Shown here piece after piece: positions 1 to 47,590 of a DNA stretch of 64,000 nucleotides. Where the stretch lies: positions 14,510,501 to 14,574,500 of the forward strand of contig OX485808.1 in assembly GCA_950295325.1 (NCBI GenBank), given 5' to 3'. Position numbers and translations under genes: made by a program. The notes below the pieces were generated by a model. It ran no database searches. It was not told where the DNA came from and worked only from the letters and a program-made list of their open reading frames with translations. Positions within the stretch are counted from its first letter, which is position 1. Each line of letters starts with the position of its first letter. The stretch comes from Polytrichum commune. Its lineage: Eukaryota > Streptophyta > Polytrichopsida > Polytrichales > Polytrichaceae.

Positions 1-570
1 CAATCCTTTTACAAGGTAAGAAGGATTCATACATTACGACACACAAAAGGTCCGTTGCCCAATCATAAATCAATCCGTAAGGTAAAAACCTCACGTGTGT
101 AGCACCTTGTTGGGTCATGCTTAGCCTTTAGCCTTAACTTAGTAAGTTTCATGACACGGGGAACTTACTCCACTAAATATTGTATTTAGTATCACTTACT
201 ATTTGAAATTAGGCAATGCTATAACTACTTACTGTATTCTCATTCTTGGTTGTCAACAAAGGTCAAATTGGTTGTTTAAACATTATGGAACATCACCATC
301 TTTACTCGGTAAAGTTTTACATCAATAGTAAAAGAAAGCAATATGTAATTCCAAATAGTGAGTGACACAAAAAAAGCATGATATTTAGTGTAATTGTTTG
401 AATCTTGAGCAATGAACACTATATTCGTTAAATTGAGACTTTTTGGGCATTTTGAGACATTCACATAAATAAGAACAAGGATAAATGGAACACATATTGG
501 AGAAAGTTGTAAGATGCGAACACTTTGAAGCAGGTGTTTAGACCAAGAACCCCATAAATAACTCATATTT
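1..570. other. Intergenic, AT-rich
   Basis: No coding region can be supported here. Around 165-215 and 220-275 the DNA resembles a dispersed repeat seen again near 45.97-46.12 kb and 58.9-59.1 kb; the shared pieces include TATCACTTACTATTTG and GTGCTATAACTA-like words. The segment gives way to the degenerate palindrome repeats that start at about 577. Confidence 0.5.
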
Positions 571-576
571 GTGATG

Positions 577-796
577 GTTTAGGGTGGGCAATCCAAATCT
601 TAGACCACATTTAAGGGGAAACCTTAAAACATTCATATTATTGCACACAAAATATTAGAGCTTGTATGAATATGGTTTAGGTAGGGCAATCCAAACCATA
701 GATCTTATTGAAGGGTAAATATGTTAACCAATATAATATTGCATACAAAATATTCCAAACTCATATTTATGATGGTTTAGGTAGGGCAATCCAAAC
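577..796. repeat. Three tandem units with degenerate 22-mer palindromes
   Basis: Three roughly 99-bp units each contain a 22-bp word starting at 577, 675 and 775. Each word begins GTTTAGGTAG or similar and ends with CAATCCAAAC or similar. It has the same length and outer bases as the GTTTGGGTCG-arm palindrome that fills the rest of region 1, with about six to eight mismatches. I read these as old copies of that palindrome and as a possible left subterminal array of the element. The spacing and outer bases are seen directly; the relationship is an inference. Confidence 0.6.
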
Positions 797-962
797 CTTA
801 GACCATATGGAAGGGGAAATCATGTCTAACTTATATTATTGCAAAAAAAAACATACAAAGTGTGGCATGTAAAATGCATATCATGCTAACACCACACATC
901 CATTGGATAGTGCGACCCAAAATGTTCTTGCCTATGGCCCAAAACCCTACGCCTACTATGGC

Positions 963-1788
963 CTATCTAGCCTCGGATACTACCTCTTTTTCTTTTGCTT
1001 CATTTTCTTTTGTTTCTTTTTCTTTTTCCTCTTTTTCTTTTGCCTCTTTTTCTTTTGCTGCAGCTTCTTTTGCTCGCATTGCTTCAACATTCCTGAAAAT
1101 CTCCGCCCCGCGACTATAGCCATTCTTGGGGTGAACGCCATCAATAACACATTTTGGATTCCGTCGGCCGCCCGAATTATACGACGAAGAATTCGAATAC
1201 GATGAAGTGGACTGTCTTGCATTTCTGGTCATGGAGTAGAAACGCTCCAACTCGATGGACACACTAGCCCGCATAGGTTTACGGGTGGGAGCAACCTGCA
1301 ACGCGTCAATGCAAGAACACATGTGTTAGTTTAGGGAGGAAGACCCAAACGTGTCACACGTTCATTTTTTAAGTGCAAAATGATTGTAATGCGTGGATAA
1401 CCATGTTTTTTTTTTTGGGGGGGGGGGGGTTCACCTTGTCACCGGGGGCGTTCCCGTTGGAGTTGGCGAGGAGGGGCAAGGCATCCCGCAAAGGAATAGG
1501 AAGGGTGCCACTCCTCGTAGGCCGACCGTCCATCCGCAACCGTCGTTGAGGTGTAATATGGCCACCGGGTCGAGAGGGCGACGTCCGGACGCATTTGCGA
1601 TCTATGCCCTTTAGCGGCGACGGGGACGCAGATCGCCGGAAGATTCGCTTGGGTGGGGGGCTATCGACGACGCCGGCGTCAAGAGGCTCCTTGGAGTAGT
1701 CAATGGTTGACGCGGCGTCGTAAACGGTCTCGTAGAAGAAGCTCCCCAAGTCTGACTCGCTGACGATGTCAATCGAGGGCTCCAAACG
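963..1788 (-). CDS. Two exons for a basic, Ser/Pro-rich and Lys/Glu coiled-coil tail
   Basis: Two minus-strand exons, 1435-1788 and 963-1295, join in phase 0. The first follows a pyrimidine-rich stretch and CAG and ends AAG before GTGAAC. The second follows TTGCAG. They read RLEPSIDIVSESDLG, then a Ser/Pro/Arg-rich part, then a basic segment with a Ser/Tyr-rich stretch (SSYSNSSSYNSGG), and end in a Lys/Glu/Ala-rich helix of about 40 residues, probably a coiled coil. No ATG opens the first exon (the open frame begins at TTG), so it is more likely a downstream exon of the FCP1-containing gene just upstream than an independent gene. I could not find a phase-0 donor that links the two. The intron carries a degenerate 22-mer palindrome at 1329-1350. 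I do not recognise the family. Confidence 0.5.
1329..1350. repeat. Degenerate 22-mer palindrome in an intron
   Basis: The 22-bp word begins GTTTAGGGAG and ends AGACCCAAAC. It keeps the outer arms and exact length of the region-1 palindrome and lies in the intron between 1295 and 1435. Confidence 0.5.
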
Positions 1789-1897
1789 CTGGAGCCGAAA
1801 TTGGAACAAAACAAAACCCAAGGAAAAGGGGGGAGATAGAGCGCGTGAAAATCAAGATACATATGAAGTGTAAATTACACAAAATGGGCGGGCGCAT

Positions 1898-1918
1898 ACA
1901 CACACACACACACACACA
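1898..1918. repeat. (CA)n microsatellite
   Basis: About ten CA dinucleotides lie just downstream (minus strand) of the FCP1-like exon, between it and the coiled-coil tail exons. Confidence 0.85.
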
Positions 1919-1937
1919 TACAAACACACGTACTGTC

Positions 1938-2750
1938 TCAAATGAGCTTGTTAAATTTCGCGTGAGATAACAACTCTCTGTACAAATGGTCTCGTGGATC
2001 CAAGTATCTCTCGCCTATGGAATTATTCCTAACAAAATTGTTTACGGGAAGTCCGCTTCCCCAGAGCGCCTGGAGGTATTTACTAAGGTCTAACAAAAAT
2101 CGGTCCCGGACCTTCTCGACCGTCCACGTAGGGCACACTATGAAGTTGGCCGTCGGGTTCAACATGTTCTTTGCGGCGCTGTCGTCCACCATGAGCATGT
2201 TCTCGCGGGTGGGGCGGACGTCGTAGGGGACGCCTATCAAGGACGGTCGCTGGTCCCAAAAAATGGGCTTCAAGACCTTGAGATATTGGGGGGAAGCGGG
2301 GTTGTTTGGTTTTTTGACGACTTTGCCGTCCTGTGTGTACAATATTCTACAGGCTTCCTGTGCTAGGACCATGCAGGGGGGCTCGATGCCCTTGAAGATG
2401 AATTCCACGACGGCATTGGTGTTCTCGGCCTTCATGGAGCTCCACACGACCACCCACCATCGTTGCTGGGCGATCTGGAGGAAGGTCCGAAGCCACGGGC
2501 GGAGGTGAACTAGCTTGCTCTTTATGAACGTGGGCGGCCCGTCGTAATTAACGTCCTCGGGCTTGCAAAAGGGCATTGTGGGGGCCCTAGGGCAATGAAC
2601 GCACTGCACGAGGACACCGTTCAGGTCTAACACCAGGAATCGTTTCTTCGGCAGCGGGGGCGGGGCGGGTAAAACCGGGGGGGCCGCCGTGCTGCCTTCT
2701 CCGCTCTTTGGAGAAGAGCGTCGGGGAGCCGCTACGCTATGCTCCGAGCC
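1938..2750 (-). pseudogene. FCP1/SCP-type HAD phosphatase-like domain exon
   Basis: This minus-strand exon follows a good acceptor (ATCAACAG) and opens with a Ser/Pro/Ala-rich linker, then PKKRFLVLDLNGVLV. That is the HAD motif I of FCP1-like CTD phosphatases, with the nucleophile Asp kept and the second Asp replaced by Asn (DLNG). LVHLRPWLRTFL, then VVVWSSMKAENTNAVVEFI (motif II, SS) and NMLMVDDSAAK-type motif III with its DD pair follow in the expected order. The end, VRNNSIGERYLDP, resembles the usual C-terminus of NLI-interacting-factor-like proteins. The family dephosphorylates Ser/Thr on nuclear proteins such as the RNA polymerase II tail; the Asn would be expected to alter activity. 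Phase 0 at the acceptor fits the donor at 3260, so this is probably the C-terminal part of the ParB/methyltransferase-like gene. A separate captured host exon is the alternative. Confidence 0.7.
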
Positions 2751-3216
2751 CTGTTGATACGAGGGAGAGAAAACGGGGGCGACTTATGTCATGCTATGTC
2801 CAAACGAAGCATTAAGGAAACGAGTGTTCTTGGTGCAAACACAAAACCAATTGATTCATTTTGGAGGGGGGTGCAACAAGGGATACAAGAGAGACAAGAG
2901 CATACAAAATACATTCAAACACAATATACAAGTATATAGGAGTAAAAAATGGTGATTGTATTGTATACAATGCTCTATGTACATCTTGATTGGGGGGAGC
3001 CGCGTTGAACGATGCGTTCAAACTAGCCTAGTTCTACATCTAGCAAAATTTGAAGAGACGTTCCGCCGTGATGAAGACTTCGTCGCAAGCCGGGGTAGGT
3101 GGACGAACGAATGGTCGCTGGGGGTGACAAAGGGCACGAGTGCCGGGGGGGGGGGGGCGCGTAAGTTCGTCCTAGCTAGGGGACACGACCAAGGCAAGAA
3201 GACAAAGACCCATGGA

Positions 3217-3238
3217 GTTTGGGTCGACCGACCCAAAC
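3217..3238. repeat. 22-mer palindrome in intron 3
   Basis: Perfect 10-bp arms GTTTGGGTCG and complement surround the centre AC. It lies between the donor at 3260 and the acceptor at 2750. Confidence 0.9.
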
Positions 3239-3520
3239 TGAGTGGGGTCAGTGCATTACCTCGCCTTGGTCGTGCCTTGACGACGTTGATGCCGACATCG
3301 CGTGCGCTGCCCCACCTTTGTCACCGCCGCCTCCGACGACGACGTCAGCCGCAACCTGCTCCTGCAAAGGCTGATTGTCAGGCCTTTGTCCCAACCCAAC
3401 CTCCGCATGCGCATCATGCATTGGTTCATCGACTGGGTTAGGAGTAGAGGTATCACCAGGCCCTTGCGGGCCTTCAACATCTAACATGGGCTCGTCCACC
3501 GGGGTCTGGTCGGGGACGGG

Positions 3521-3611
3521 GTTTGGGCCGGCCGACCCAAACCCTGCTGCTTGGCGAGCGTCGCTCTGGGACGCTGCAACGTCGGCACTGTTTGGGTTGG
3601 ACGACCCAAAC
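3521..3611. repeat. Two 22-mer palindromes within exon sequence
   Basis: Copies start at 3521 (one arm changed to GTTTGGGCCG) and 3590 (GTTTGGGTTG arm). They lie inside the Pro/Gln-rich exon of the ParB/methyltransferase-like gene and are translated as VWVGRPK- or FGSxxPN-type peptides, depending on frame. Because 22 is not a multiple of three, a simple insertion here would shift the reading frame. Confidence 0.8.
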
Positions 3612-4795
3612 ATGTGGGGGTCGTCCCGCTAGTGGTGTGGGGGCGAGAGGATGGGAGGCCGGAGCGGCGGGGGCGCCAACGAGCTGGACGCTCCGGGGAC
3701 GCGCCAAAGGTTGGGGTCGTCCACCTGCTAGACGGGCGTGCGGCTGCAGCAACTGTGCGAAGCTGAAGGAATGCTGCAGCGTGGGCCGCGGGGCGATATC
3801 CTGTGGCGGGAAGCCTGCGGGCAAGTGCGGGAATGAACTCGGGGGAGCCATCACCAATCCCTGCGCCAGCATGCCCTGGATCACTTGCGTGATGAGCTCC
3901 GCTTGGGACGGAGGTTGGGCCATCGCCCTTTGCCGCTCCTGCTCCAACAGGAGAGCCCTCAACTCCGCGACTTCGTTGCGGACCGAGGGTTCCTCGGCGG
4001 CAGCCCTCTGCAGTCGCACACGCTGCTCCTCGTCTCGGAGCATTTTTGCGTTCGCCTCCTCCACGGTGAGGACCTCCGGTTTCACCCTCACATTCCCGGC
4101 GAACGCTCTGGGGGAGGCAGGATCCGACCTCAGCCTCTTGGCGAGTTCCATGTCGTCCTCGTCCTCTGAGCTTATTGCGATCGTCTCCTCCACCGCATAG
4201 TCGCCGTACAGCTTCTTCCCCTTCATCCTTCTCCGCTCCCTGAAGGTGGCTGTCGCGTCCCTCGAGTACATGTCTTTCGCGTCGTCCACCGTCAACGCGG
4301 GTACCAGCCTGCTCTACGGCGTGGCAGCCCACATGGCCTTCTTCCGCTGAGGGGCCTCGGATTCTTGAGTGAATCCTGTTGCCCCTTCCTCCACCTCCCC
4401 CTCCACTTTCTCTGCTTCCTCCTCCTCCTCCTCCCCCTCCTCCCCAACCTCGCCACCTGCTCCCATCGACGGATTGTCCGGATGCAACCCGATGAGCGGC
4501 TCTGGCAATTGAACGGGGGCACGCATGGCGAATTCACCCGGGTTGATTCGCCTCGCCATATCCAAAGGATTCTCGCCCCCCTCGACTATCTCTTCAACGT
4601 AGGATCCGGGTATCCAGTCGAGGATGTCCATTTTCTTGGCCAGTGCCTTCTGGGTCCTGTAAAATTGAACATCGGCATCCTCCACATAGGAGTAGATGTT
4701 CAACCCAGACATCTGCACAATCCAAATCAATAGTATTAGTATCAACTAATGAAGAGTAAGGAAAAATGACATCCAAAACAAAATAAGAATAGTTA

Positions 4796-4888
4796 GTTTG
4801 GGTCGAGCGACCTAAACTAGGGGATGCACAGTTTGGGTCGAGCGACCCAAACTATGTTTGCCCCTAGTTTGGGTCGCTCGACCCAAAC
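4796..4888. repeat. Three 22-mer palindromes in intron 2
   Basis: Copies start at 4796, 4831 and 4867 (spacing 35 and 36 bp), with centres AG, AG and CT. All lie within the intron bounded by the donor at 4923 and the acceptor at 4712. Confidence 0.9.
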
Positions 4889-6316
4889 CGTCCATATAGG
4901 GCCTTCAGGGTTCTTTGCTTACCATTACTGCAAAAATTGGTTTGGATCCCCCGAAAACGTTGAAGATGCAGTCCCCTCTCTTGGTGAGGGTCCTCATCAT
5001 CCGCAGGTAGAACTCCATGCGCAGCTCATCCGCGGGGTAGTTGGCGTACTTTGCCTCGTCATACAAGCTCCTGCTGGTACCCAACCCTTCTTGGACTTGG
5101 AAGAGTTTTTCCATCCTGGCTATAGGATGGTTGGGCACCTTAAGTAGATCAGCTTTGTACACGAAGTACAAGCACAACACGTTGACGATCTTCGTCTTCT
5201 TGTCTTTCAACGTGCTATACGCCCCCTCCACCGGTGCAGCAACGTAGTGAGATTTCGAGACGGCATACTCCGGCTGCAATTTGCGCACGATCTCGTAAAC
5301 CTGCTCTGCCCTCCTGTCCTCGACAATCCAGAGCCAGACGTCGACCTCCCTGAATTTGGGGCTCGCGTAGTCCACGAACTTCGACAAGAAAGGATCGTAA
5401 AAAGGGGTGCTCATAGTCCCCTCGAATGAGGCTCCATGGATATTCCTGAAGTCTATCATTCCGAAGGGGAAGCGGTCCCCGGCTTTAGTCCTGATCGCCT
5501 TCCTGGACTCAGAGCCCGGCCAACCTTGGATCCTGAGAGGCTCGACGGTGACCATGTTGAATTGCGCATCGCCTTCGAAACTGACGATCTTCTTCTCCTT
5601 TATGAAGTTGGAGAAGGCCCGCGCTGAGTGTTCGGGAAGCACCCGGTTCCTCCCCCCCTTCACGAGCTTGGATCTGAGGAAGTCGTCTCCCGCCTCCCTC
5701 ATGAGTGCCGCCATGGACGCACTGGTGAATTTATATTCGGCTTTGAAGGCCCTCCAGTGCGCCTCTTGGACCTCCCCGTCCACGATGAGCTTCTTCTCAG
5801 GCACCAGCTTGTGCAGCTCCTGGACGATGGTCGTCTTCTTCTTCCTGTTCTCCGTCCATTCCTTCATGGTGTAGCATGAAGGGACAAAGATCTTGGGTTT
5901 GGTGAAGACGATCTTAGGGTGGACCCAACATCTCTTCGCCGTCGTCTCCACGTGTATGATGTGGGACGCCGTTTTTCCCATCTCTGTCTCGGAAAGACCT
6001 TGAAGCGCTCTGAAGAACTCCCTCACCAGAGGCTTCATTTGCTTGAAGCGCGTAGTCTGGTTGAAGAGCATGCCGGTGTCGGGGTCCATAAGGTCCCCCG
6101 TCTCGTGTTTCTCAAAAACACTCCTCCATTTTCCCCACACGGAGTCGGACGCGGTGATCAAATATATTTCTCCTCGCAACTCGTTATACTTTTTTTGCTT
6201 GTGGCTAGCATTGTCTATCGAGGAGAATTTATTGATCATCTGATATTTGAAATCCTGCACACGTAGCCAACAATTCATGTTAGACAACATCTCATGGAAT
6301 AACAAATGTAACAGCA

Positions 6317-6452
6317 GTTTGGGTCGATCGACCCAAACTATAAACCTGGTAAAGACAACAAAGCCATGCAAGAGTTTGGGTCGACCGACCCAAACTATGA
6401 AATTGTTGAAGACAATAAAACAATGAAAGAGTTTGGGTCGGTCGACCCAAAC
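6317..6452. repeat. Three 22-mer palindromes in intron 1, exact 57-bp spacing
   Basis: Copies start at 6317, 6374 and 6431, with centres AT, AC and GT. The spacers between them are similar (ACTATAAACCTGGT..., ACTATGAAATTGTT...). They lie within the intron between the donor at 6461 and the acceptor at 6254. Confidence 0.9.
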
Positions 6453-7950
6453 ATACTCACCTCCCATTTGGGGTTCTTATCTTTAGCATTCTCCCTTTCC
6501 CTGGGAGGCCTGCCATAAAACTCCCACACCTCCCTCGAGGCCATGATGTTTCTGATCCACGATGCCTGATAGGCCCTCTTTTTGTTCCCCATGTTGAAGA
6601 ACCTGGAGATGTCGCTGAGGACCGTCTCGTTGTCCGACCAAACCACCAATGCCTTCCAAACTTTTAGTTTCTCCTTCTGGTTGTTCGGGTCGTTCCACTT
6701 GGTCATCAACTGGATTTTTTTTTATGCCTCCACACTGTGCTGCCCGTCAATCAACCAAAAGTCTCCTTTGGAAATTGTCGGCCACATATCAGGCGTCGGC
6801 ATTCTCTTCAACCCTTGTGGCATGACAACAATCGTCTGCCTGTCGTCCTTGAACTGCCCGCCCACGATTTGAGCGACCATCCAGTCGACGTAGGCGTCCT
6901 CCTTGGCTCGGACACATTTCTCAGGTGGCGCAAGGTGGCACTGCGCAATGTTGACCTCGAACTTGAAGTCCCTGCCCATGAAGAAGCAGTGCAGGCATTT
7001 TGTTTCGAAGTTGGTGTTTATTTTTTGTATTTCGCCTGAATCCACCTCCTGGCCAGGCTTCGGCATCCGGAGCACCGGGGAAACAGGCTCGTCAGTCATC
7101 ACCGATGACTCTCTTCCCCTTTTGAAAGGGGTCGTTTGACGGCTTGTTGATGGCGTTGGCGTCTCGCTGTCAGCCAGCGTTGTTGTAGTACTTGTCCGTC
7201 TCGACTCTACAGGGACCGCCCGCGGTTTCCTCACAGTTTGTGGTCTTGAGGACCCTGCGCCTTCTTCCGTCGTTGCCTTCCGCCTCACAGGCTGCTGTGT
7301 CTTGGGTTTGCTTTGCAACGCCTTGTTTAGAACCGTGATGGCCTGTTTTAACTTCATGAACCTGCTCGCAACCTTCGTGTTGGTTACACTGCCATCTATG
7401 AATATGGCCTCCGGTTGTATGGTTTCAGGGTCGACGCAGGTCTCCTTGGCGTACATGGGGTCGAAGGGCTAGGAGAACTGGTGCATGAACAAGTGGACGT
7501 TCTGCACGGCGGAGTTCTCCAGTATGACGTCTACGTAGTCCCCGAGGGACTGGACGGACGCAACCTCCCATCCCGTCAGCGTTGCCCAGGTGTGCTGCTC
7601 GTGGGTCCCCACCTTCACCACGAATAGCAGCTTGAACATGGATGCCTTCACCACCTGAACGGACCATGCCAAAACGACGCCATCTTTTGGGACGTAAGAA
7701 TCGTCCTGTGGAGTTTCATACTCCTGCCAAAGGTGGTCTGGCGCGAGCATGAACCACCTTTCACCTGGTCTCTTTTTAGGGGCCATCTGCAATCCAAGAA
7801 ATCGAAACTGTGAGTTTCGGTCGATCAACCCAAAGTATTGCAATGTGCATTTAACATTTGGAGGATTGACCCAAACATTACTTAATTTTCAAAGTCATTT
7901 TAAAAGATCTTTTAGATTTTAAAGTGCGGTTTAGGTGGTCACCCTGCAAT

Positions 7951-8750
7951 GTTTGGGTTGAGCGACCCAAACATGATGAGGCTGCAAATTTAGGTAGTTT
8001 AACCCATTCATTTCAGACTACAATGTTTGGGTCGAACGACCCAAACATTTACTTAATTTTTAAAGTTCTTTTATATTTTACAATGTGGTTTGTTCTTCTC
8101 CCTGTAATGTTTGGGTCGAGCGACCCAAACATGATGAGGCTGCAAATTTAGGTAGCTCAACCCATTCATTTCAGACTGCAAAGTTTGGGTCGAACGACCC
8201 AAACATGTACTTAATTTTCAATGTTCTTTTATATTTTACAATTTGGTTTAGTTCTTCTCCCTGTAATGTTTGGGTCGAGCGACCCAAACATGTTAGGCTG
8301 CAAATTTAGGTAGCTCAATTCAATCATTTCATACTGCAATGTTTGGGTCGAACGACCCAAACATTTACTTAATTTTCAAAGTTCTTTAATATTTTACAAT
8401 GTGGTTTGTTCTTCTCCCTGTAATGTTTGGGTCGAGCGACCCAAACATGATGAGGCTGCAAATTTAGGTAGCTCAACCCAATCATTTCAGATTGCAATGT
8501 TTGGGTCGAACGACCCAAACATTTACTTAATTTTCAAAGTTCTTTAATATTTTACAATGTGGTTTAGTTCTTCTCCCTGTAATGTTTGGGTCGAGCGACC
8601 CAAACATAATGAGGCTCCAATGTTTGGGTCGCTCGACCCAAACAAGAGGCTGCAATGTTTGGGTCGAACGACCCAAACATTTAGTTCATTTTAGGCTGCA
8701 ATTCAAATATTTATTATATTTTAATATGAGTTTGGGTCGTCTCCCCAAAC
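7951..8750. repeat. Dimeric array of 22-mer palindromes, 158-bp period
   Basis: Twelve copies start at 7951, 8025, 8109, 8183, 8268, 8341, 8425, 8499, 8584, 8622, 8657 and 8730 (the last is degenerate). Copies alternate: those at 7951, 8109, 8268, 8425 and 8584 have centre AG, and those at 8025, 8183, 8341, 8499 and 8657 have centre AA. Each series has a 157-159 bp period. Spacers contain GGCTGCAAATTTAGGTAG and ACTTAATTTTCAAAGTTC. An extra copy at 8622 (centre CT) splits the last unit. The array lies just upstream of the ParB/methyltransferase-like gene, so it may be its promoter side, an element end, or both. Two more degraded copies may lie at about 7812 and 7856. Confidence 0.92.
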
Positions 8751-9239
8751 TACTGTGTTTCCATATGCATGTTTAATGCTTCGGCAACATATACAATGCT
8801 TATGCATTGTATATGTAACAGGAACCTAAAGGGAATGATGCAAATTGTGTGCACTGATGCAAATTGCTTACCTTGTCTTTCAAACTCTTGAAAGCTGCTC
8901 TCACAATCTGCTTCTTAGAACCAGACTCAAAAACTCTGTTGTGGCACTAAAGAACAACTCTCACAAAGACCTCAGAAACACAATGAATCTCTCAAGCACC
9001 CTAAAACTTTCTCACAAACCCCCTGAATCTTGCAAACTCAGGCCTAATTTGAAAGACCTCTACCTTTCTATCACACTTGACCGTGCTCACTTCTACTCAA
9101 TCTAAAATCACTCCATGCATGAAATTTACAAAACAAGTAAGGAGTTCAACACAATAAACCGCTCCGAACTCACTCAAAGCTAACACTCTGGACCAAGAAG
9201 AGAGAATAACAAGAGGAAGACAATAACAAGAGGAATAGA
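8751..9239. other. No gene recognised
   Basis: Moderately AT-rich DNA with many CTC/CAC words (TGAATCTCTCAAGCACCC and similar). It has no domain, splice pattern or repeat partner that I can identify within the window. Short open frames here do not look coding. Confidence 0.4.
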
Positions 9240-9720
9240 ATGAGAGAAGAGGAGGAGAGGAATGAAGGAGAAAGAAGAATGAAGGGAAGCGGCGCGACCA
9301 AGACAAAAGCAAAAGGTGCGAAAGGAAGCGCTTGGCACGGCGCTATGGAAAGCGGCGGCGGCGTTTCCAACAGCGGCGCTTGGCGCGGAGGAAGAGAGGA
9401 AGAAAAAGAGAGAAAAAAAAAAAAGGAGGGGAGAGAAGGAGAGAGCGGAAGGGGTCACCCTAAACCCTCGAATCCGGGCCATTTGATTGCGCCGGGCCCA
9501 TCAACGGCTCAGAAGCCTCGCGGGCCAACACCCTGCCAGGTGTCGACACCTCCTTGGTTTAGGTGGTTGCCCGCGAGGCTTGTGGTGTTGACACCTGCCA
9601 CCCTAGGTAGATTGCCTTCCTGGTTGTCCTTGCCCCTAGGTGCGGGACATAGGAGGGCCGGCGCCTCTCTTGGCCGCCCGGCCCCGGCCTTCTAACCCGC
9701 TATTCATTAGCGGCAATTCA
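9240..9720. other. GA-rich then GC-rich segment with small hairpins
   Basis: A purine-rich tract (GAGGAGAGGAATGAAGGAG style) is followed by GC-rich DNA. An inverted pair, GCCTCGCGGG near 9515 and CCCGCGAGGC near 9571, could form a hairpin. CCGCTATTCATTAGCGG at about 9698-9714 is a second perfect hairpin with 6-bp arms. The composition is sharply different from both flanks, which suggests a separate insertion or a CpG-rich regulatory piece. No gene is recognised. Confidence 0.4.
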
Positions 9721-10230
9721 ATACCACTCAAAAACCTACGTGGACTAAGGTATTCCACAAAATTAACACCATCGCCAACTCATATTTTAATGGTGTTCAA
9801 TTGAATGATCACCCGTTGGAATTGATAACATCGTAGAATGTAGCCATTATCGTTTTGGTGTATGAATAATGTAATTTATGGAATCATATGAGAGTGTTAC
9901 AAAGTCTAAGAGGAGTAAATCATAATTATATTGCAATCCACAAAGGCAATTACATGGTGCAATAATATAAATATGGTAACCATTCACATGGTTAACAGTT
10001 TAGGATTATGTATTGTAATTTATATGATAGTTGTTGGTAGAGGACAATGCTCTAGTCTATAATGGATACCCTAACAAGTAGCATTAGAGTGAACATTAAT
10101 ATATGTACTTAGAAGTTCACATTTGAAGTACATGGGAGAAACAAATGATTACAAATGTATCTACTGCAACCCCATGGAGTTCACATATCATATGAAGTCA
10201 TTTAAACATTCAGTTTGATGTTTGATGATG

Positions 10231-10252
10231 CCTAAACCCTAAACCCTAAACA
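10231..10252. repeat. Interstitial plant telomere repeats
   Basis: Three consecutive CCTAAA(C) units, the Arabidopsis-type CCCTAAA telomere motif. The run is too short to be a telomere. It may mark a repaired break or simply be chance in a promoter (telo-box). Confidence 0.6.
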
Positions 10253-11058
10253 ACACAAACCATAACTGGATGGCACATAGGTCAAATGACATGGGCCTTG
10301 GTGCTTGTAGTTTCCAATACAAATGTATATTGTCATCACAACATCCTAATTCAAAAACGTGAAAGATGGATGTGTGGTTTTTCACGAATGAGCGCACTAA
10401 AGGAAATAAATGATATTGTGCTCACAAGTAGGTGATACAATATTAACCTATAACCTTGTCACCTGGTAAGAAGAGCATAAGAACTAGATTATAATAGATA
10501 GGATGTTGTTCATGTTAACATGTTATTTGGAATAGTGAAATATTATATATTAATTTAAGGTAGATTTCATATTGTGAATGATATGAGGACATACCTTTTG
10601 AACTTTGCATGTTTTGCTCACACACATTGCTAGAGTTCAAGGGACTTCACGATAGGTTCAAACATTCTTGAAAGATTGAACGTGCCAAATGTCATTTGTG
10701 GTTTATGGTTCCATTAATGACTTCCACATAGGTACTAGGTTATTGTCACACTTGGAGCCTTGAGGATGAAGCAATATTGGGTGCACACATTACAACACAA
10801 CATATGTTCTTTTAATTAGCGGAAATTGAAAGTTGGCCAAATTATTCAAGTTTGTCATGGCATTAATTATTTGTTTTCAAAATATAAGTCCTCATGTGAG
10901 AGTGTAAGTAATTGCATTAACTATTATATTTAGTGACTTTTAGTATATGAAGTTTTGTAATACATGCACATCTTTTGTCAATATATTGTTTGAAATATAC
11001 CATAATGTTTGACTACAAGTAGAGTAAAACCCCTTAATAGATATAATCTTACATATTG

Positions 11059-11194
11059 TCATAGGGTTATTGGTATTCAGTGTATGCGTTCATATGTAGT
11101 GTATCAAAATCTTTATATCCTTTTTAGTTATATGATAGTTAGTGTTTGATACACTTAAAACGAACGCATACACTTCCTATTACTAACCCTATGA
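11059..11194. mobile_element. Fold-back MITE, about 136 bp
   Basis: A left arm beginning TCATAGGGTTATTGGTATTC and a right arm ending CCTATTACTAACCCTATGA are near-perfect inverted repeats of about 50 bp. They share GTGTATGCGTTC/GAACGCATACAC and TGTATCAAA/TTTGATACA. This short hairpin has no coding capacity. Confidence 0.75.
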
Positions 11195-11502
11195 GAGTAA
11201 GTAACATTAAATGTAAACTCAAACACTAAATATCCACTATGGTGATATATGGAAGTTATATGTAGGAATTTAGTATTAGTAAGGATGTGAGAAAAAAATA
11301 CAACAATGATAAAAGGAGAAAGGAGATGGCAATAGGGAAGGTGGTGGTGTATTCATGTATAAAACTAATTATGAAAGAGTTGAAGAATAGTGTTGACCAA
11401 GTTAGGGTGGTAACAACTTTAAATATATGTTGAATTATTCATTTGATGGTTGGGGCAACGAAGAGCCAAACTAAATATACATTGTCTATTATTGACAAGA
11501 AG

Positions 11503-11601
11503 CGGGAAATTGAGTCAGAAGGTTTGAATTAACGTCCAAAGGAGACCAGGCGGGAAAGGCATCCAAAGAGGATGCCCAAAGCGGAGGCGGGTAGTATAAA
11601 G
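11503..11601 (+). promoter_or_regulatory. Candidate promoter: two E2F-type sites and a TATA box
   Basis: GCGGGAAA at 11503-11510 and again at 11550-11557 match the E2F consensus (TTTSSCGC on the other strand). TATAAAG at 11595-11601 follows 38 bp later, and then a C-rich likely start region. This is the nearest promoter-like block upstream of the DUF7869-type gene on the same strand, about 1.5 kb before its first ATG. The intervening DNA is mostly the palindrome array, which would then be transcribed as leader or intron. Confidence 0.45.
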
Positions 11602-11815
11602 AGCCCAACCCCCCCAAATGCTAGTTCTTTCTTTCATGTCCCAATCCTGAGATTGCTGCAAGCTCTCTAAGTTGGAGCTGTAATACACAGTTTGTGTACG
11701 CTTCCATTCATGAGCAGCTAATTACAACAAGCATCTACGAGTTCAGTTGTTCCAAATAGGTTATATATAGATTAATAGAGAATCACCCGAATAAATAGGC
11801 GGATTTTGCGGAATT

Positions 11816-12905
11816 GTTTGGGTCGGTCGACCCAAACCCAGCCTTACAGTGTGGGTGCTCTCTGTTGTGAGCCTGAACCCATCCTGCCTCAAGGTTTGGG
11901 TCGATCGACCCAAACCCAGCCCTACAATGTGGGTGCTCACTGTTGTGAGCCTGAACCCATCCTGCCTCAAGGTTTGGGTCGATCGACCCAAACCCAGCCC
12001 TACAGTGTGGGTGCTCACTGTTGTGAGCCTGAACCCATCCTGCCAAAAGGTTTGGGTCGGTTGACCCAAACCCAGCCCCAAAGTGTGGATGCTGTCTGTA
12101 GTGAGCCTGAACCCATCCTGCCTCGAGGTTTGGGTCGCTCGACCCAAATCCAGCACACTAAGTATGGGTGCACCCTGTCGTGACCTTAAACCCATCCTGC
12201 CAAAAGGTTTGGGTCGGTCGATCCAAACCTAGCCCCTAAGTGTGGATGTTGTCTGTAGTGAGCCTGAACCCATCCTGCCAGAAGGTTTGGGTCGATCGAC
12301 CCAAACCCAGCCCTACAGTGTGGGTGCTCACTGTTGTGAGCCTGAACCCATCCTGCCAAAAGGTTTGGGTCGCTCGACCCAAACCTAGCCCTGAAAGTGT
12401 GGGTGCTCTCTGGAGTGACCCTAAACCCAGCCCCCTAAGTATGGGTGCTCCTTGTCGTGACCCTAAACCCATCCTCCCAAAAGGTTTGGGTCGCTCGACC
12501 CAAACCCAGCCCCAAAGTGTGGATGCTGTCTGTAGTGAGCCTGAACCCATCCTGCCTCGAGGTTTGGGTCGCTCGACCCAAACCCAGCCCTCTAAGTGTG
12601 GGTGCTCTCTGGAGTGACCCTAAACCCATCCTGCCAAAAGGTTTGGGTCGCTCGACCCAAACCCAACACACTAAGTATGGGTGCACCCTGTCGTGACCCT
12701 AAATCCATCCTGCCAAAAGGTTTGGGTCGGTCGACCCAAACCTAGCCCCTAAGTGTGGATGCTGTCTGTAGTGAGCCTGAACCCATCCTGCCAGAAGGTT
12801 TGGGTCGATCGACCCAAACCCAGCCCTACAGTGTGGGTGCTCACTGTTGTGAGCCTGAACCCATCCTACCAAAAGGTTTGGGTCGCTCGACCCAAACCCA
12901 GCCTC
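11816..12905. repeat. Array of 14 palindromes with 78-79 bp period
   Basis: Palindromes start at 11816, 11894, 11972, 12050, 12128, 12207, 12285, 12363, 12484, 12562, 12641, 12720, 12798 and 12876. Steps are 78 or 79 bp except one of 121 bp, where a partial unit lacks the palindrome. Spacers are related to each other (CCCAGCCCTACAGTGTGGG, GAGCCTGAACCCATCCTGCC) but not to the spacers of the 7951-8750 array. Centres vary: AT, GT and CT. The unit is 26 codons long and has few stops on either strand, so it creates long spurious reading frames. It ends about 200 bp before the DUF7869-type gene. Confidence 0.95.
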
Positions 12906-13110
12906 TAAGTGTGGATGGGATCTGGATGACAGTGTGGCCACTGGCCATCCGAAACCTTTACGAACCCAATGGCATATCAGTCATATGAACTTGTATGAGC
13001 ACTGAGTATTTGCAATTTTGTTTATATATGATGGTTTTTGTGTTCTTCGATTTGAACCTACAATTTTTGTGATTTTTTGACAATGTTCAATGTTCATGTG
13101 TGTAGGCATA

Positions 13111-16100
13111 ATGGATGGGTTTAGTGAAATAGGGGATTGGTCATCTGATGACATGGCCACTTGGCCATCTGCATCTGATGATGACTTAGACATTGTCGGG
13201 GAGGCTACTATGGCTGACAGTGCGGATGAAGATCATTTGGATTTACCTTCGTCTTCCGTACCGCAGTGTCCCATTAATTGTTGAATGTACGGGACTTTCA
13301 AGGGCTTCGTGGGTGAATTTGGAGGTGATACTTCTTAACGATAGTGGAGTTGTTGTGGTGGAGGGGATTTGCCGTAACACCCATCCGCAAGATTGCATTG
13401 ATGAAAACCCGCTTGGCACCGAGGACGTTGGGGTTGTCATATTGGAGTCGGTCGTTCATTCCGAGGTGGATCCCACTCATAGGTTCTCCCTCCGCAGGTG
13501 GCCATTGAGGAATGTCACAATTGATGGAGTTAGCTTGTGTGAACATGAGCAACGACACATGCAAATCGAAAAGGAGGTGCAATCAAACATGCGGCCGCGC
13601 AAGGGTCAAAGAAAGTACGATACATTGGCACGTCCTGCTCCGTCTGCAACTGATTGTAAACGTCAAAGGTTGCTCGGGGAGGAGTCCATTAGAGAAGTTG
13701 CCACAAAGGATTGTTGTGTGCATTGTTGTTGCCAATTGTTTCCAAGGGATAAATTGAAGGCGATCCGCGAAGAAATGTGGCTTGGAGATTTCCGTCTAAG
13801 ATCCATAAGAAAACTTGATGTCCATAGGGCGATACATGTGAATGGGACGGGTCGCAAGGTCATCACCATTGAAAGCATAGACGTGTGTTGTAAGGCATGG
13901 TACACCATTCACGGTGTGTCGAAAGCGGACTTTTATAGACAAGCTGCTTATGCCAAGGAAGGCCGCCGGTCCTGTCACCATGGTAATGTGGGTTTAAAGA
14001 AGCCTAGGGAAGCAACAAGGCAAGTAACGGCCACTCTAGCAACCATCATTGTCCCCCTTGCCGATGCAATGCCGCACAAAACACGCACACTCACAACCGG
14101 TGAAAAGGTTGTGGAGAAAGTTCTTCCCACAGGCACAAAATGGAAAGACATATTGTTGGACGTGAATGCAGTTGGCGAGAAGATTGGGTTGGAGCCAATT
14201 TCATTGTCAAAATTGAGTGCAATCAAGAAACAAAACTTTAGCGAATACATTACAAAAAGACGAGGGGACAAATTTGCCAGGTGCTCTAATTGCGAGAAGT
14301 TGAAGCGCCTCCGGGATGCACACACGATGGGTACCGAGTCATATGTAGCGCATCAATTGAACTATTTCAAGCACGTAAACATGCAAGAGGCACACCGTAA
14401 TGATTACTACACAAATAGAGCTTTGTCCATCTCCAGGCCCTTGGAGGTTCTTACGGTCATCCATGACAAAATGGACCATGCCAAAACAACCTCCCCATGT
14501 TTTGCAAATTGAATCAAGGCCACGGATGGGTTTTTTAAGTTGCCTGTATCGGTTACAGGTGAACTTCGAAACAATGTCATGACATACCCTAAATGTTGTG
14601 GTTTTTTATTCCGTGATGTACTTGAGAACATGGATTCACTCAAAATGGTTTAATTATATCTAATCACGTTGGGTTGGCATTGCAGGAATGATTGCACATG
14701 GACACAGTGATGTCAAGTTTGCTCATTATGCTCTTGATTTGTATCCAGCGGATTCAAACCACACGATAGGGTCATTTGCAAGGCTTTTACGTGATTTAGA
14801 GAAACCGCCAGCCTATTCTTCAGGATTGTTATTTGAAAACACGGGTTCAACACCTCTATATGAAGCGTTGTTGGATGGAAAAGATGTATGCTTTCATTCG
14901 TTGCCAGAGCCACCCAGTGATCCCGTGATTGCCAAAAAGTTGCCTCCCACTTTGCGTGTCCAATTGGACAATTGTGCCAAGAACAATAAAAGTAGATATG
15001 TTTTTGCATATTGGTCGTTGTTGGTTGCAAAAGGCATTTTCAAGGAGGTTTTTGTGTCCTTCCTATTGGTAGGCCACACGCACGATGATATTGATGCATC
15101 TTTTGGGCGGTGGAGCATGAAGTTGCGGGAGGAGGATTTTCCTACAATCCCGTTATTGATAAAGTCGTACATGGATTTGGATAACGTTCCGGTCATCCCC
15201 CATATGATTGAAGAGGTGCCAGACTTCAAGGCATTTATAGAACCTTATATTCGAAGTGGAGCTCACCGATTGATCGGGCATACGAAGGCACAACAATTCC
15301 GCTTCTATATGCGTGACGATGGTGTCCCGGCCATGCAATACAAGTTGTTGTGCACGACACAAGACTGGAGCCTGCCGGAGGGTCTTCTTGTGTGGCGCGT
15401 GGATGCGGATGGAAAAACCATGTTACCGGATGGGGAGCCTAGGCATGAAGAATTTGGAGGATATTTTGAAAGGTATATCAGGCTTCATACAATATTGGGA
15501 GAATTTGAAAATAGCGGATGTTGGCGGATCATGTTGGCATTGTTATGGGAGTTGGATACATTATTGGACACGTGTTCGTGCCGCCTTGGCAGACCTCCAC
15601 CAAGATAGCCCTCATACTTTGAGGCATGGATTTTGGCCACAAATACGAGTCGATGTACAAGCTTCGGAGCCTAGTCTTTTGGGAAATGGAGAGGTTCGAG
15701 AGGAGTTTGATGTGGACGACTATTATGTGGGGCCTGCTAGTAGTCGTCCGCCACCATCTTTCCGCATTGCAGTGGATTGTCATGAAGATTACATGCTCAT
15801 TTTGCGTCCTGGAGACGAGACATATGCGAAGCCAGTGTGGGTGGCAAGAGCTTTGTCCAAACCCAATTTTGTAACTTCCAGCCCTCATTTTCAACAAATA
15901 CAAGTGGAGTACTATCGACCGACAGCAAGGAATGAAGATGTGATTCGGCATTATACAGGCTGGGATACAAACCCTAACTTTCGGTGGAAGGTGGATTCTG
16001 AGCACGGTCCATCTTGGGTAGATACAGATTCTATATTCATAGCATGGAAACCACGGAAAACCCATAGTGGATCAGTGTCCATCCCTCAAAAGTACATAAC

Positions 16101-16155
16101 TTTTGCAAAAGACAACCTTGCTCGGATTGCACAAGAAGCAACCCACGTTGAATGA
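13111..16155 (+). pseudogene. DUF7869-type, DDE/RNase H-like probable transposase (decayed)
   Basis: Plus-strand gene starting at ATG 13111 with an acidic N-terminus. A Cys-rich region follows (CCVHCCCQLFPRDKLKAI, later CSNCEKL, likely zinc-binding), then VIHDKMDHAKT, and an intron at 14559-14685 (CAG/GTGAAC, TTGCAG acceptor). After it come QLDNCAKNNKSRYVFAYW and VGHTHDDIDASFGRWS. The HDKMDHA, QLDN and GHTHDDID blocks are the hallmark of DUF7869-family proteins and supply plausible catalytic Asp residues for an RNase H fold. The C-terminus (GDETYAKPVWVARAL, YTGWDT, WVDTDSIFIAWKP) looks like a small chromatin-reader or SH3-like barrel. The copy is broken by a one-base frame change near 13.28 kb, an in-frame stop just after the first Asp block, and another frame change near 15.48 kb. 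That it is a transposase is inferred from family resemblance. It could drive the palindrome-bearing element. Confidence 0.75.
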
Positions 16156-16159
16156 GAAG

Positions 16160-17200
16160 TTGGTAGGATTGTGTTAGCATGATTATAGTTTAATACGTAA
16201 TTATAGCAATATAAATTACACATATGTGTGCTCTTCAAAATTGGGGCAGAGTTTGGGTAGAACTTACGAATACTATATTGTTTGGAGTTGGATGAATATC
16301 CATTTACTATATTTAAAAAAAAATGAAGTTCATATTATTATTATGTTTGGGACTATATTGTCGAATGAAGAAATATGCATTTATTACATGCACTTTGTAT
16401 GTTGCAATGTCTATATTCTATTGCGCATGCTAATAATAGAAATCATTTTATATGTGTTTTGGGTGAAACTTGTTTGGAGTGCTCTACCCAATGTGTTTTT
16501 GTTGATGAAGTTGGTGTCGAGTGCTCTACCATATGTGCTTATGTCCGCACATCATAGATTTGGGATATTAGAACATATAATATAATTGAGATTGTTGACA
16601 ATATAGTTTCGGGCCTCTTCAAGTTCTTTGATCCATATATTAATTTGAGACTAGAGAAAGTCTCAATTTAACGAATATAGTGTTAATGCTACTATAAGTA
16701 TACTACCCATTACTTTTGGCTTCCCGGACTTTTAATTCAATTTCATTTCATTTCACAACCCATAACATACATACATACATAGTGGACTTACATGTTCATT
16801 CTACCTCGAGGCATAGGCTATTGGCTAGGTTGTGCATGCTGCAATTATTGAATAAGAGTACCTATATTTGCATTCTAACAAAGTCGCTACTTTCAATTGA
16901 GTGGTCACATGGTTTGCATCATAAATTGAAAAGTGAAAGGGACAACCGGAAATCACATCATTGAAGTTGACACATATCCATATCCCAAGTTTAGATGGAA
17001 ATAAGTTCAAATGACAACGTAGCATCTCCCTTATAATTGTTAGTCAAATGAGGATTTTAAAAGCACCATCCTAATAAACCAACCCACTTCGTACAAATGA
17101 AGCATCATTGCAGGGCTAACAAAAATAGGAGACAAGAATTTACAAGAATTTAACAAAGCTTAAATGTGCACCTATTGAGCTCATGTACTTCTAGTGGTGC
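16160..17200. other. AT-rich spacer with no gene
   Basis: Nothing coding is supported. Near-repeats TTTGTTTGGAGTGCTCTACC and TGGTGTCGAGTGCTCTACCA at 16460-16540 suggest a small local duplication. If the DUF7869 element has a right terminus it should lie here, but I see no palindrome array or clear terminal repeat. Confidence 0.4.
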
Positions 17201-17658: not shown

Positions 17659-19620
17659 ATGGAGGGAGCTTCGGAGACGATGAGCCCCCAAATCCTTCCC
17701 AGCTTTCTCTACAACAGAACTTTCGGTGCAAAGACATCATCCCACAAGCTACTACCATCGCCACCAACCCCGACCTCCCACAGCTTTCCCTCGCAATTGC
17801 TGCAGAGACTGTACCACCGGCCAAATGCTAACAATTTCGCAAACCCCAAGAACAAATTCATGGCTCCTGCCCCCGCGGAGTCGAGAATTCAGATGTACTC
17901 CACCGACTACTTCATGGCATGTGCACTGGGCGGGATGCTATGTTGCGGTTTGACCCACACAGGTACCACCCCCCTCGACGTAGTGAAATGCAACATGCAG
18001 ATCGCACCTACAAAGTACACAAGCATCAGTTCCGGATTCACCGTCGCAATCAAGGAAGAGGGGTTCCGAGGATTGTACCGGGGGTGGGCACCAACGCTGA
18101 TCGGGTACAGCATCCAAGGTGTGGCCAAATACGGCTTCTACGAGTTCTTCAAGTATAAATACTCCGAACTCGCAGGTATGAAATCATCGTAGCATCCATC
18201 CCCGGTGTTTTAAATGGCGTTTCCTGTGAGAGGTTAATTTAATTACTTACATCCGAGTTGAGTAAACAGGATTCAGAATCTTCTGAGAAATAAACTAGTC
18301 ACATTGACCTACGTCTGGTTTTATGCATGCTTCGTATCTAAGAAAGTTAGCTCAATAGCAGGGCCAAGTAAATTGTGAGAGGTTGAGGTTGAGGTTGAGT
18401 TTATCTACATCTGATCTGAATAATATATATTCAGAGTCTTTTATAGCAATACTAGTACTTGTATTGATCTAAGTCATACTTCGTACTGAACAAAGGTAGC
18501 GAACCAATAGTAGAGGTAGAGTAAAATGAGAGGTTGATTTATCTACTTACATCCGATCTGACTAAGTATTCAGTCTTTTGAGCAACATTTTAATGGGACT
18601 TCAAGTTGGTCGGGAGCTACTCCCCTCTCACGAATTTTCATTGGTCCTTTGGCACATAAAATCAATAATTTCTTCCACTACTGGTGCATCCTTGAAGGTA
18701 GTGTTTGAATTTGAATGAAGAGCGACCTATTTCAGACGGATCAGTGAGGACCAAACTGATTTTAGCACCTCTTGGAATGTTAAAACGAGTTTGAGCCTCA
18801 ATGAACCGATATAGTATATACTTCGTTCAAACCTTGAAGCATGCACCGAAAGCTTACCGAACATAGAAGGTGGTGTATGCAAAACAACCAACTCCCGACC
18901 AAAAGTCATGTTGAGTTAAATGATGGCTCTAATACTTGGAATGATCTACTAAGTCTGGTTTTTATGCATGCTTCGTGTTTAACAAAGGTGGTTCAAATGA
19001 TAACAGGGGCCGAGAACGCTGCGAAATACAAAACATTTTTGTACCTTGGGAGCTCAGCGAGCGCAGAGATCATCGCAGACGTCGGTCTGTGCCCCTTTGA
19101 AGCTGTCAAAGTGCGAGTCCAAACCCAGCCAGGATTCGCAAAGGGTTTGGCAGACGGGATGCCCAAACTGATTGCGTCGGATGGGTTTATGGGTTTATAC
19201 AAGGGGCTTGTTCCGTTATGGGGACGTCAGATTCCTTACACGATGATGAAGTTTGCGACGTTCGAGAGCACGGTGGAGGCCCTTTACAAGTACGCGGTGC
19301 CGGTGCCGAAATCTGAGTGCAGCCAGGGCACCCAGCTCGGTGTGAGCTTCGCGGCGGGGTACATTGCTGGGATCGCGTGTGCTATTATCTCCCATCCTGC
19401 GGATAATCTTGTTTCGTTTCTGAACAATTCGCAGACGGCGACTGTGGGGCAGGCAGTCAAGGAGATGGGGATGATGGCGCTTTTTACCCGGGGGTTGCCT
19501 CTAAGGATTTTTATGATCGGTACCTTGACAGCCGCCCAGTGGGTCATCTACGACTCCTTCAAGGTCTTCTGCGGGTTCCCTACCACCGGTAGCAGCGGCG
19601 GTGACGAAGATGGACATTGA
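17659..19620 (+). CDS. Mitochondrial phosphate carrier (SLC25A3/PHT3 family)
   Basis: Two exons, 17659-18175 and 19007-19620, join in phase 1 (SELAG / AENAAKYK) to give 376 aa. The protein imports phosphate with protons across the inner mitochondrial membrane to feed ATP synthase. Residues 1-75 are a Ser/Pro/Arg-rich presequence. Carrier signatures follow in three repeats: PLDVVK (105-110), PFEAVK (202-207) and HPADNL (302-307). Family blocks such as KVRVQTQPGFA, PLWGRQIPYTMMKF and FTRGLPLRI are intact. Length and order match plant PHT3 proteins. The first ATG (17659) is chosen because it opens the presequence; a second at residue 8 is possible. The C-terminus TTGSSGGDEDGH is typical low-complexity. 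The gene appears functional. The upstream 17.2-17.65 kb is GC-rich and likely holds the promoter. Confidence 0.96.
18227..19006 (+). repeat. Intron built of tandem copies, about 150 bp unit
   Basis: Within the carrier intron, TGTGAGAGGTT or ATGAGAGGTT plus TTACATCCGA or similar recurs near 18228, 18376 and 18527. The word TGGTTTTATGCATGCTTCGT near 18315 recurs as TGGTTTTTATGCATGCTTCG near 18957, just before the acceptor. The intron thus looks expanded by three or four diverged copies of an approximately 150-bp segment that includes acceptor-proximal sequence. Confidence 0.7.
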
Positions 19621-23809: not shown

Positions 23810-26800
23810 TCAACGTAAATAGCAACTTGCAAAGCCGGGAGAGAAGAACTTCTCGGGAACCCACCACTTAACGTCATCATACTCTCGAAGGCCTCCGCAT
23901 CCATCACTCTGGAGCACCGGACCATCCAGCTCTGTGAGAAACTGTTTCTCGTTCCTGAAGTACCTCTTCTTGTGGATTTTGACCACTCGATAGTAATTGC
24001 CTTCCTCGGGTTCCGAATCCTCGTCATTGACAGGAAGGGGTATCACAACTCTTTCGTGAACTCGTGGCGTCTGCTGTTTTCGCCTTTTCTTCGCAGTGGT
24101 CTCTCGGTTTTGCAAGTTCTCCTGTTCACTTAGCGGTGAATCTCGACTGATGGAACGCAAATCCTCACAAGAGGGAAACCCTGGCTGTGCAGGGCTTTCA
24201 GCTCGTACTTCCGTATCCATCTCCATGGACGCACAGTTGATGGCAAATTTCTTGCTGGGCGACTCCGGCGCTGGGTCCAGGTTCAGGTTCAGGTCGAGGG
24301 GCTCCTTTCGACAGCCTGAGAAAATAGCTTCATTCATCTCCTCTTCGATATACTTTGCCCTGGCTTTCCGGATGGCTCTGTACAGTGTTCGATGAGCATT
24401 TCTCAATCGTAATTGACCTGTCATATTAGGAGGTCTTTCTGAATCGGATTCTCGTGGCTCCTTGTGGCTGCTCGATCGAACCGTCCGCCCAAGACCACCC
24501 TGACAACCTCCGGAAATAACACGGTAGTGGTCCCGATAGCTCACCCCAATGCAATTAATATCGATCACACGAAAAATGTGGACAATTAAGGTCCAGGATG
24601 TTGCATCTTTGAGCTCGAAAACACAAACATCACCTTCTTCGAGCAGGTGTTGGATGGAGAACTGCTCCCACCCTGTTGTTATGCCCCTTTGGGTGATAAG
24701 AGCTCTTGTTTTGTTTCCAGTGCCATCACAGAGGAATATATTGAGAGTTTCACCAGATGAGAGTTCTCGGGGAAAACTGGGTGGGAGTTCCTGCATCCAC
24801 AATTCAGATATAAACTATGTCTTAGTCTCACGAATGTTTTCGCCATGCAGCTCCTGTCCCGCTCTGCTTTTAAGGAGGAATAAGCACAGGACGACTGACT
24901 ACCTCCGACTCCTAAAATGCCTCCCTCACAAAAAATTGAGGAATGAGCTGCTGAATCTTATCTCAAAGACACATTTCGGTCCCAGGAAATGACAAGATAT
25001 TACTGACAAGGGTACAATTACCATGAATTGAAAAGAAAATTGGGATGGAAGTCCGTAACACATTTTGCATGACAGAGAGGTCATAGATTTGAATTCGTCC
25101 ATTCCTCTTCAGTTGTCTGTTCTGTAACCAGGGACCCAGAGTTAAACATTCTACTCACCACAGTGAATTTCTTATACACATGTGAGTTCTTCAGAACTAC
25201 CAAAGCAGTTGGATTCTCAGTTTTCAGCGCCCAAGCGGCCTCCTTAGCTCGTTCCTTAGCATCCTCTGTCACAGGAGATCGTCTGGAAGCAAGATACAAT
25301 GGCGATTTGCCCTTACAGGCTTGCGCCTTCCGTTTCTGTGCAGAGCTCGGTGTACACCATGCCCAGCCCCAGGTCCTTTTCTTTTTCGGTTTGTCATGTT
25401 TGCGATAACGTTTTCGCGTTTTCGCCCATTGATTTGGTGTACTGCAGGCAGGTTTCACGCCTTCTCCGCTTGTAAGTTCAGACAAGCGCTCAATAGACTT
25501 GAGCACACCGGTGTGGCTGTGGTCCTTCCACGCTGTGCATTCTTGGGGAAGCTGAGCTCCTCTGGATCTCTGTGCATCCTGGGGACGCACTTTCTCATTG
25601 TTGTGGTCAGCTATTTCAAAAGTAGGAACCTCTTGAGGTGCCCGTCTGGCCGTGTAGTCTCCGCAGATCTTTGGAGTATCTGGATTGATGCATCCCGATG
25701 ACATCTGACAAAGAATCTCACCGAAGGCTGCTTCCTGCACCTTGCTTATGTCGCCATCATTTCGATTGCCATTCTCTTTACTGCATCTTTCCAAGAAACT
25801 CTGTGATTCCCCAGTGAATGTTCTCACCTTACTTTGCTCTTTGGTTGCCCACAAGGACAGTGTCTTCAATCGTTCCCGGCCTACGGAATTTACTGGTGAA
25901 ATATCCCGTCGCTTAATGCCTAGTTTGCTGGGTCTCGTAGAACTAGTAACCGTCATGCGATGAAACGCGTTGTACAACACCATTTTGGACGGCATACACG
26001 GATGTTGTCCTTCTGCGGTTGCCGATAATATATCCTTAGTTACGAAGGGTTTTGGTTTTTTCTTCCGACGTTTCTCCTGCTTCTCTGAAGATTTTCGCTT
26101 CCTCTCATACGACTTTTGATGGCCAGATCCCGACTCCGGCCTCTTCGGTTTAGCGATGATGAGCTGGGTGTTGTCTCTTGGTTCCGTTGAACGGAAAACA
26201 TGGACGCGCAATGTTAAATAGTTTAGCTCAATGAGCTCAAAGACACACACATCCCCTTCGCAAAGTCCCTCTGCAAGGCAAAATTCTCTCCATCCCCGTG
26301 TGAGCCCCATATGAGTCTCGTTGTCACGAAGCCATGACATTGGCCAGCGATGTCCATTTTCGTCAAGCAAGTCCATTGGAACAGTTTTCCGAGGCATGTG
26401 CTGTTTCCCAAAGGTGACTGGGAATCTCTGTTACTCACAAACAACCTTCGTCTTAGTAATTGATGAGCTCCTTCAGTCATTCAGAACTGAAAACCATTGA
26501 TAGAAGAGCTGACTCTCGCTTCAACTGTCAAAAAGGATTCACCGGACGGGAGTATCTTTCTTATTGCACTACTTGACAATTGACCTGTCGAGACTCTTAT
26601 TAAGCTCCAATCACTCATTACACAATGTTCAAGGGCAATCGCAATCTTTTAAGCACGTCTACAAATCCTACAGCAGCGTTAGACCTAGATTGTCGAAATC
26701 GAGGGGTTTTCGCAATCTGTTTCAGTCCTACCAAACTTATCATCGAGGTTTTCTTCACTGAAAATCTATTGTCAATATCATACTGAAACTTTCAGTACTC

Positions 26801-47305: not shown

Positions 47306-47590
47306 TGACATCAAAATTAGTTTGTTCAAGATCATTTGACACCGGGATTAGTTTTAAAGACCCAAAATTAGTTTGTTCAAGGTCATTTGACACCGGGATT
47401 AGTTTCAAAGACCCTTAATTAGTTTGCTCAAGACCGGGATTAATTTCAAAGACCCAAAATTAGTTTGCTCAAAATCATTTGACACCGGGATCAGTTTTAA
47501 AGACCCAAAATTAGTCTGCTCAAGATCATTTGACACTGGGATTAGTTTTAAAGACCCCGAATTAGTTTGCTCAAGATCATTTGAGATGAA
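47306..47590 (+). repeat. 51-bp minisatellite, about 5 copies
   Basis: The unit contains ATTAGTTTGTTCAAGATCAT, TTGACACCGGG and ATTAGTTTTAAAGACCCAAA. One copy is shortened. As 51 is divisible by three, part of the array is open (KLVCSRSFDTGISFKDP per unit), but it starts in no recognisable gene. Confidence 0.9.

Follow-up and report, generated by a model that had tools for sequence, protein, structure and literature searches.

A two-gene DNA transposon in Polytrichum commune

In the genome of Polytrichum commune (GCA_950295325.1), we analyzed a stretch of 64,000 nucleotides of contig OX485808.1 (positions 14,510,501 to 14,574,500 of the forward strand), hereafter the window, which contains a whole DNA transposon carrying many copies of a 22-bp palindrome. 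This element belongs to what we call family A and holds two divergent genes, a DUF7869 transposase-like gene on the plus strand and a gene for a ParB-like protein on the minus strand. The splice sites were read by eye, and the minus-strand gene has further exons besides the four (A to D) given here:

415..16684: whole family A DNA transposon, 16,270 bp, delimited by its inverted repeat and by comparison with siblings
415..439, plus strand: left terminal inverted repeat (TIR), AACACTATATTCGTTAAATTGAGAC, from the inverted repeat and the siblings
1941..2783, minus strand: exon D, NLI-interacting-factor-like (NIF) phosphatase domain (PF03031, E 3.1e-15)
3261..4712, minus strand: exon C, with a linker FGSxDPN encoded by two palindromes
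4923..6254, minus strand: exon B, a conserved family that by eye looks like beta-class DNA methyltransferases but has no DPPY motif
6461..7786, minus strand: exon A, N-terminal beta-rich and predicted ParB-fold domain (FWLIDGQHSVEA), with stops in this copy
13106..16152, plus strand: DUF7869 transposase-like gene, start placed by eye, frameshifted here
about 14931-15356, plus strand: DUF7869 domain (PF25273, E 1.2e-42, 146 bits against a curated cut-off of 26)
16660..16684, minus strand: right TIR, from the inverted repeat and the siblings

The window copy is flanked on both sides by AATG (411-414 and 16685-16688). The TIR with its own 4-bp target site duplication (TSD) was found in all four family A elements examined (AATG, AAGT, CCTT and ATAA), which supports an earlier sequence-only reading of this DNA, where the palindrome was proposed to belong to a mobile element. 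The three siblings, all on contig C1, share the TIR, one end of one of them with 3 mismatches, and the genome has 595 forward and 601 reverse TIR matches with up to 2 mismatches (none in the control). Short TIRs and a 4-bp TSD are also features of Sola2 transposons (PMC3627910), a likeness of the element ends; a difference is that three of the four TSDs here contain G or C.

The same reading had taken both genes as decayed. This is true of the window copy, where stops interrupt exon A and the DUF7869 gene has frameshifts, but not of the family, which has about 600 TIR ends per strand and, among the 150 of 1,491 candidate DUF7869 places scored, many loci with the same 502-aa open frame. The siblings are better preserved in parts, yet each has broken pieces too.

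In a fold search, the structure predicted for exon A of a sibling matches the ParB/sulfiredoxin-type N-terminal domain, the predicted local distance difference test score (pLDDT) being below 50 after residue 412. Sequence searches against Pfam, NCBIfam and PDB gave no name to the ParB-like domain of the family A and sister-lineage exons, no relative of this protein was found in IMG/VR, and Pfam scans named no methyltransferase family for exon B. According to the predicted fold, family A encodes a ParB-fold protein beside its palindromes. The previously drawn link of the palindrome to ParB-like and DUF7869 genes is supported, and both genes are inside the element. Between them, at 11038-11215, there is also an imperfect 82-nt hairpin (74% complementary, with 14 nt between the arms).

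A paired 10+2+10 site conserved in changing surroundings

With up to 3 mismatches, the window has 35 matches to GTTTGGGTCG-NN-CGACCCAAAC, all within 3217-12897, and no match was found in 100 shuffles of the window; about 34 copies had been reported before, in good agreement. The degenerate copies then described from position 577 found little support, since relaxing the search to 4 mismatches adds just three sites (675, 775 and 1329). The palindromes are distributed as follows:

11816..12897: DUF7869 gene, 5' leader or a leader intron; 14 palindromes at a spacing of about 78 bp
7814..8678: minus-strand gene, 5' leader, probably a leader intron; 12 palindromes in a 158-bp tandem, with 3 mismatches in the copy at 7814
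6317..6452: minus-strand gene, intron separating exons A and B; 3 palindromes
4796..4888: minus-strand gene, intron separating exons B and C; 3 palindromes
3521..3611: minus-strand gene, coding exon C; 2 palindromes, which encode FGSxDPN
3217..3238: minus-strand gene, intron separating exons C and D; 1 palindrome
560..830: close to the left TIR, a 98-bp tandem whose palindromes are imperfect (675 and 775, 4 mismatches)

The siblings have similar 4-mismatch palindrome-like units near the matching end. Counting up to 3 mismatches, the four family A elements contain 35, 40, 26 and 36 palindromes, and these end about 2.7-5.6 kb short of the termini, with the 4-mismatch units nearer to one end. Subterminal transposase-binding repeats were considered and rejected, since the palindromes with up to 3 mismatches are 2.3-5.6 kb from the TIRs and do not adjoin them. 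In a broader form, the palindromes would bind the DUF7869 transposase and serve transposition, and family A and the sister lineage described below do both have a DUF7869 gene. We find this very unlikely given the distance from the ends, the copies placed inside introns, and the second element type (family B, below), in whose fetched stretches tblastn at E 1e-3 finds no match to the family A proteins.

The palindrome had been described as confined to one region, which holds within the window but not across the genome, where we found 9,231 exact copies in 408 Mb (64 contigs), with none for the reversed pattern used as control. Element ownership was checked for the first 100 of them (C1:438279-2159887), and all are inside five mapped elements, one of them split by other insertions, that together take up about 116 kb within the first 2.16 Mb of C1. 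No exact match to the palindrome was found in IMG/VR and GTDB contigs, nor in IMG/VR to its GTTTCGGGCG variant, in searches that may omit records of this genome.

Where exact half-sites face each other at gaps of 0-15 bp in the five elements, the gap is 2 in 115/115 cases, as expected for the dimeric site geometry that had been suggested; each family A element also has one solo half-site. The two central bases had been described as variable, and the centres then named are all present, but the centre is not free. Among the 128 exact copies in the fetched DNA, where tandem copies are not independent, it is AC in 48, AG in 30, AA in 24, AT in 22 and other in 4 (canonical strand), with A first or T last in 124/128. 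Three of the four exceptions are in coding exon C and the remaining one is in a family B array. The best reading of the site is therefore a half-site of 11 bases, GTTTGGGTCGA, opposite one of 10 bases, an arrangement that brings TCGA into nearly every copy (124/128).

The minus-strand gene was compared in a four-way alignment of the family A elements, with start points set by hand. Between two clades the arms differ by 3-9%, the centre by 55-60%, the 60-bp flanks by 38-42% and the remainder, which is mostly exonic, by about 20%. Inside each of the two clades, the corresponding values are 2% and 1% for the arms, 11% and 7% for the flanks, and 35% and 6% for the centre. The spacing of the arrays is about 78 bp in the window copy and one sibling and mostly 56-66 bp in the others, with the palindrome constant. 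The palindrome is a paired 10+2+10 site that is maintained as the DNA around it changes. We also considered a local repeat that has simply decayed, and we put this low.

A serine-recombinase crossover core, as the sequence-only reading had speculated, or an integration site would account for a 2-bp centre, and nothing else points to it. No recombinase family was found in 17 element open reading frames (ORFs) scanned, tandem neighbours have different centres, and each element has dozens of palindromes, which makes this explanation scarcely credible.

A second element type and a sister lineage

The same arms are found in family B, a 12.3-kb element at approximately C1:2151953-2164288 with palindromes at 32-bp spacing. 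Its TIRs of about 61 nt differ from those of family A, and in one copy the flanks show a duplication of about 10 bp, AGTTGGCATG, one of the two sides having an extra base. It contains a SWIM-like transposase gene (weak match) and a gene with the ParB-like motif WDGNHRFFAW (by eye), and a relative, P0064, has a weak CB_ParB_C match (E 0.16). The leader of the ParB-like gene has one palindrome array, and a second one separates two ORFs of the transposase gene. Mutator-like elements generate TSDs of 8-11 bp; family B is like them in its TIRs and the weak SWIM match, perhaps also in the duplication seen in the one copy, and unlike them in having no MULE transposase Pfam match.

In a sister lineage of family A, the DUF7869 gene has an open frame of 692 aa and shares 40-52% identity with that of family A, and the 8 kb around it contain no GTTTGGGTCG palindrome at up to 4 mismatches. 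Another palindrome, CCCACGGGTG-AA-CACCCGTGGG, occurs in tandem 5' of this gene, with 644 exact copies in the genome (0 in the control). Its centres are AA/TT or AT in the 50 of 644 sites listed, and it reads GTGA where the main palindrome has TCGA. From the positions of the sister palindrome and the layout of family A, we informally expected a ParB-like exon immediately preceding a copy in an intron, at a distance of about 17 kb from the DUF7869 gene. The 600 bases there, read afterwards, encode VVNGQHTLAA within a 199-aa open frame, which aligns to the family A profile over 183 columns (hhalign, E 4e-8). We infer that this exon and the DUF7869 gene are parts of one element. A short telomere-like stretch, (GGTTTAG)n, was also seen near the sister-lineage gene, and a short CCCTAAA run near position 10232 of the window.

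In 35 of 89 family A relatives, gene predictions running into introns spell the palindrome as peptides, and in 0 of 30 family B relatives; 20 shuffles of all 119 proteins gave 0 matches. Five proteins imply GTTTCGGGCG arms on both sides, as read from peptides and not from DNA. The trees, built with 31/42 exon A and 33/47 exon B relatives, place the GTTTCGGGCG proteins in clades of 100/100 support (three in the exon A tree, two in the exon B tree), each including one further member without the signature. Shuffled labels cluster as well in 4/500 cases for exon A and 25/500 for exon B. The arm variants implied by these peptides appear to follow the clades of the element's protein.

These data bear on the possibility that ParB-like or methyltransferase-like proteins modify sites such as TCGA as a self-mark. 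The presence of TCGA in almost all copies would fit, as would an N6_N4_Mtase-like domain encoded by the family B gene with the ParB-like motif (PF01555, E 7e-4, 20 bits and thus below the curated cut-off of 26.7, with exons joined by eye). However, no DPPY motif was seen by eye in exon B of family A or in family B, and the sister palindrome, with its GTGA, has no TCGA at that place. We regard a self-mark as quite unlikely.

Alternatively, a host transcription or chromatin factor could bind the palindrome, which unrelated transposons would have acquired as a promoter or intron enhancer. Identical arms in two element types with different ends speak for this, and the arrays are directly downstream of TATA-like sequences (by eye). 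It is nevertheless an unlikely explanation, considering that the 100 copies examined of 9,231 are all inside elements, that the sister lineage has other arms in a similar layout, and that the inferred variants track the protein clades.

Outside the transposon, the window contains a mitochondrial carrier gene about 1 kb beyond it (17659-19620, plus strand), three ORFs with B3 DNA-binding domains (23810-28391, minus strand) and a 51-bp tandem repeat of 5.5 copies (47312-47584). The B3-domain ORFs, the intron-rich genes and the telomere-like repeats point to a plant as host.

A candidate self-recognition site and its precedents

We propose that the palindrome is a cis-acting recognition site of its own transposon, bound by the ParB-fold protein of the element and acting against silencing, a reading to which we give an even chance. 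A dimer of this protein would bind the palindrome with one subunit per arm, one half-site reading an eleventh base (A). Dense sites in 5' leaders and introns could then gather the protein on the genes of the element itself, perhaps in the manner of a ParB-type clamp, and let them be transcribed despite host silencing, as VANC proteins do for VANDAL elements in Arabidopsis. Our results suggest that each family of jumping genes labels its DNA for a regulator of its own. A more general version, that at least two types of plant DNA transposons run a ParB-parS-like self-recognition system, in which the protein would be loaded onto 10+2+10 palindromes specific to each lineage and spread along the element to prevent its silencing, while site and protein codiverge, is tentative and in our view rather doubtful.

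Several observations weigh against the proposal. The ParB-like profiles of families A and B align at the motif only (E 0.18). The GTTTCGGTCG variant is not clean, P0094 also having a main-type signature and P0092 a mixed one, and P0028, the sister of P0029, carries the main-type signature. In the sister lineage, 6 kb between the ParB-like exon and the DUF7869 gene contain neither the sister palindrome nor a match to family A proteins.

If true, this would be a second, independent anti-silencing system, built on the ParB fold, present in two transposon types and with diversified palindromes. Self-marking by transposons would then evolve repeatedly, and a eukaryotic ParB would be available for testing, together with many sites and several specificities that occur naturally. 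In the open-licence literature, we found nothing relevant on DUF7869 or on ParB-like proteins with transposons, plant genomes, palindromes or moss, nor, among the matches listed, on ParB with methyltransferases or adenine methylation. VANC of Arabidopsis was the sole precedent found there for sequence-specific anti-silencing of transposable elements.

The bacterial ParB-parS, Noc and KorB systems have a palindromic site near the gene, as here, and share the N-terminal ParB fold predicted for exon A. Unlike them, family A is a plant transposon with dozens of sites per element, and the other domains of its gene do not resemble ParB.

The likeness to the VANC anti-silencing proteins and their motifs in VANDAL elements (Hosaka 2017, PMC5735166; Sasaki 2023, PMC10398659) is one of layout. 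VANC motifs occupy introns of VANC21 and VANB21 as well as the region upstream of VANA21, in tandem, and differ between related copies (PMC5735166). Similarly, here a short motif is dense and in tandem in the introns and leaders of one element family, evolves fast with variants between related copies, and accompanies a second protein encoded by the element; the turnover between lineages is seen in DNA for the sister palindrome and inferred from peptides for the variants of the relatives. The differences are that our motif is a 22-bp palindrome with a 2-bp centre and the VANDAL motif has 9 bases in one orientation, that the second protein here has a predicted ParB-type fold, and that the motif is common to two element types. 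Since the layout of the palindromes repeats that of the VANC motifs, anti-silencing would be their likeliest role by analogy, ahead of self-methylation and of binding by a host factor.
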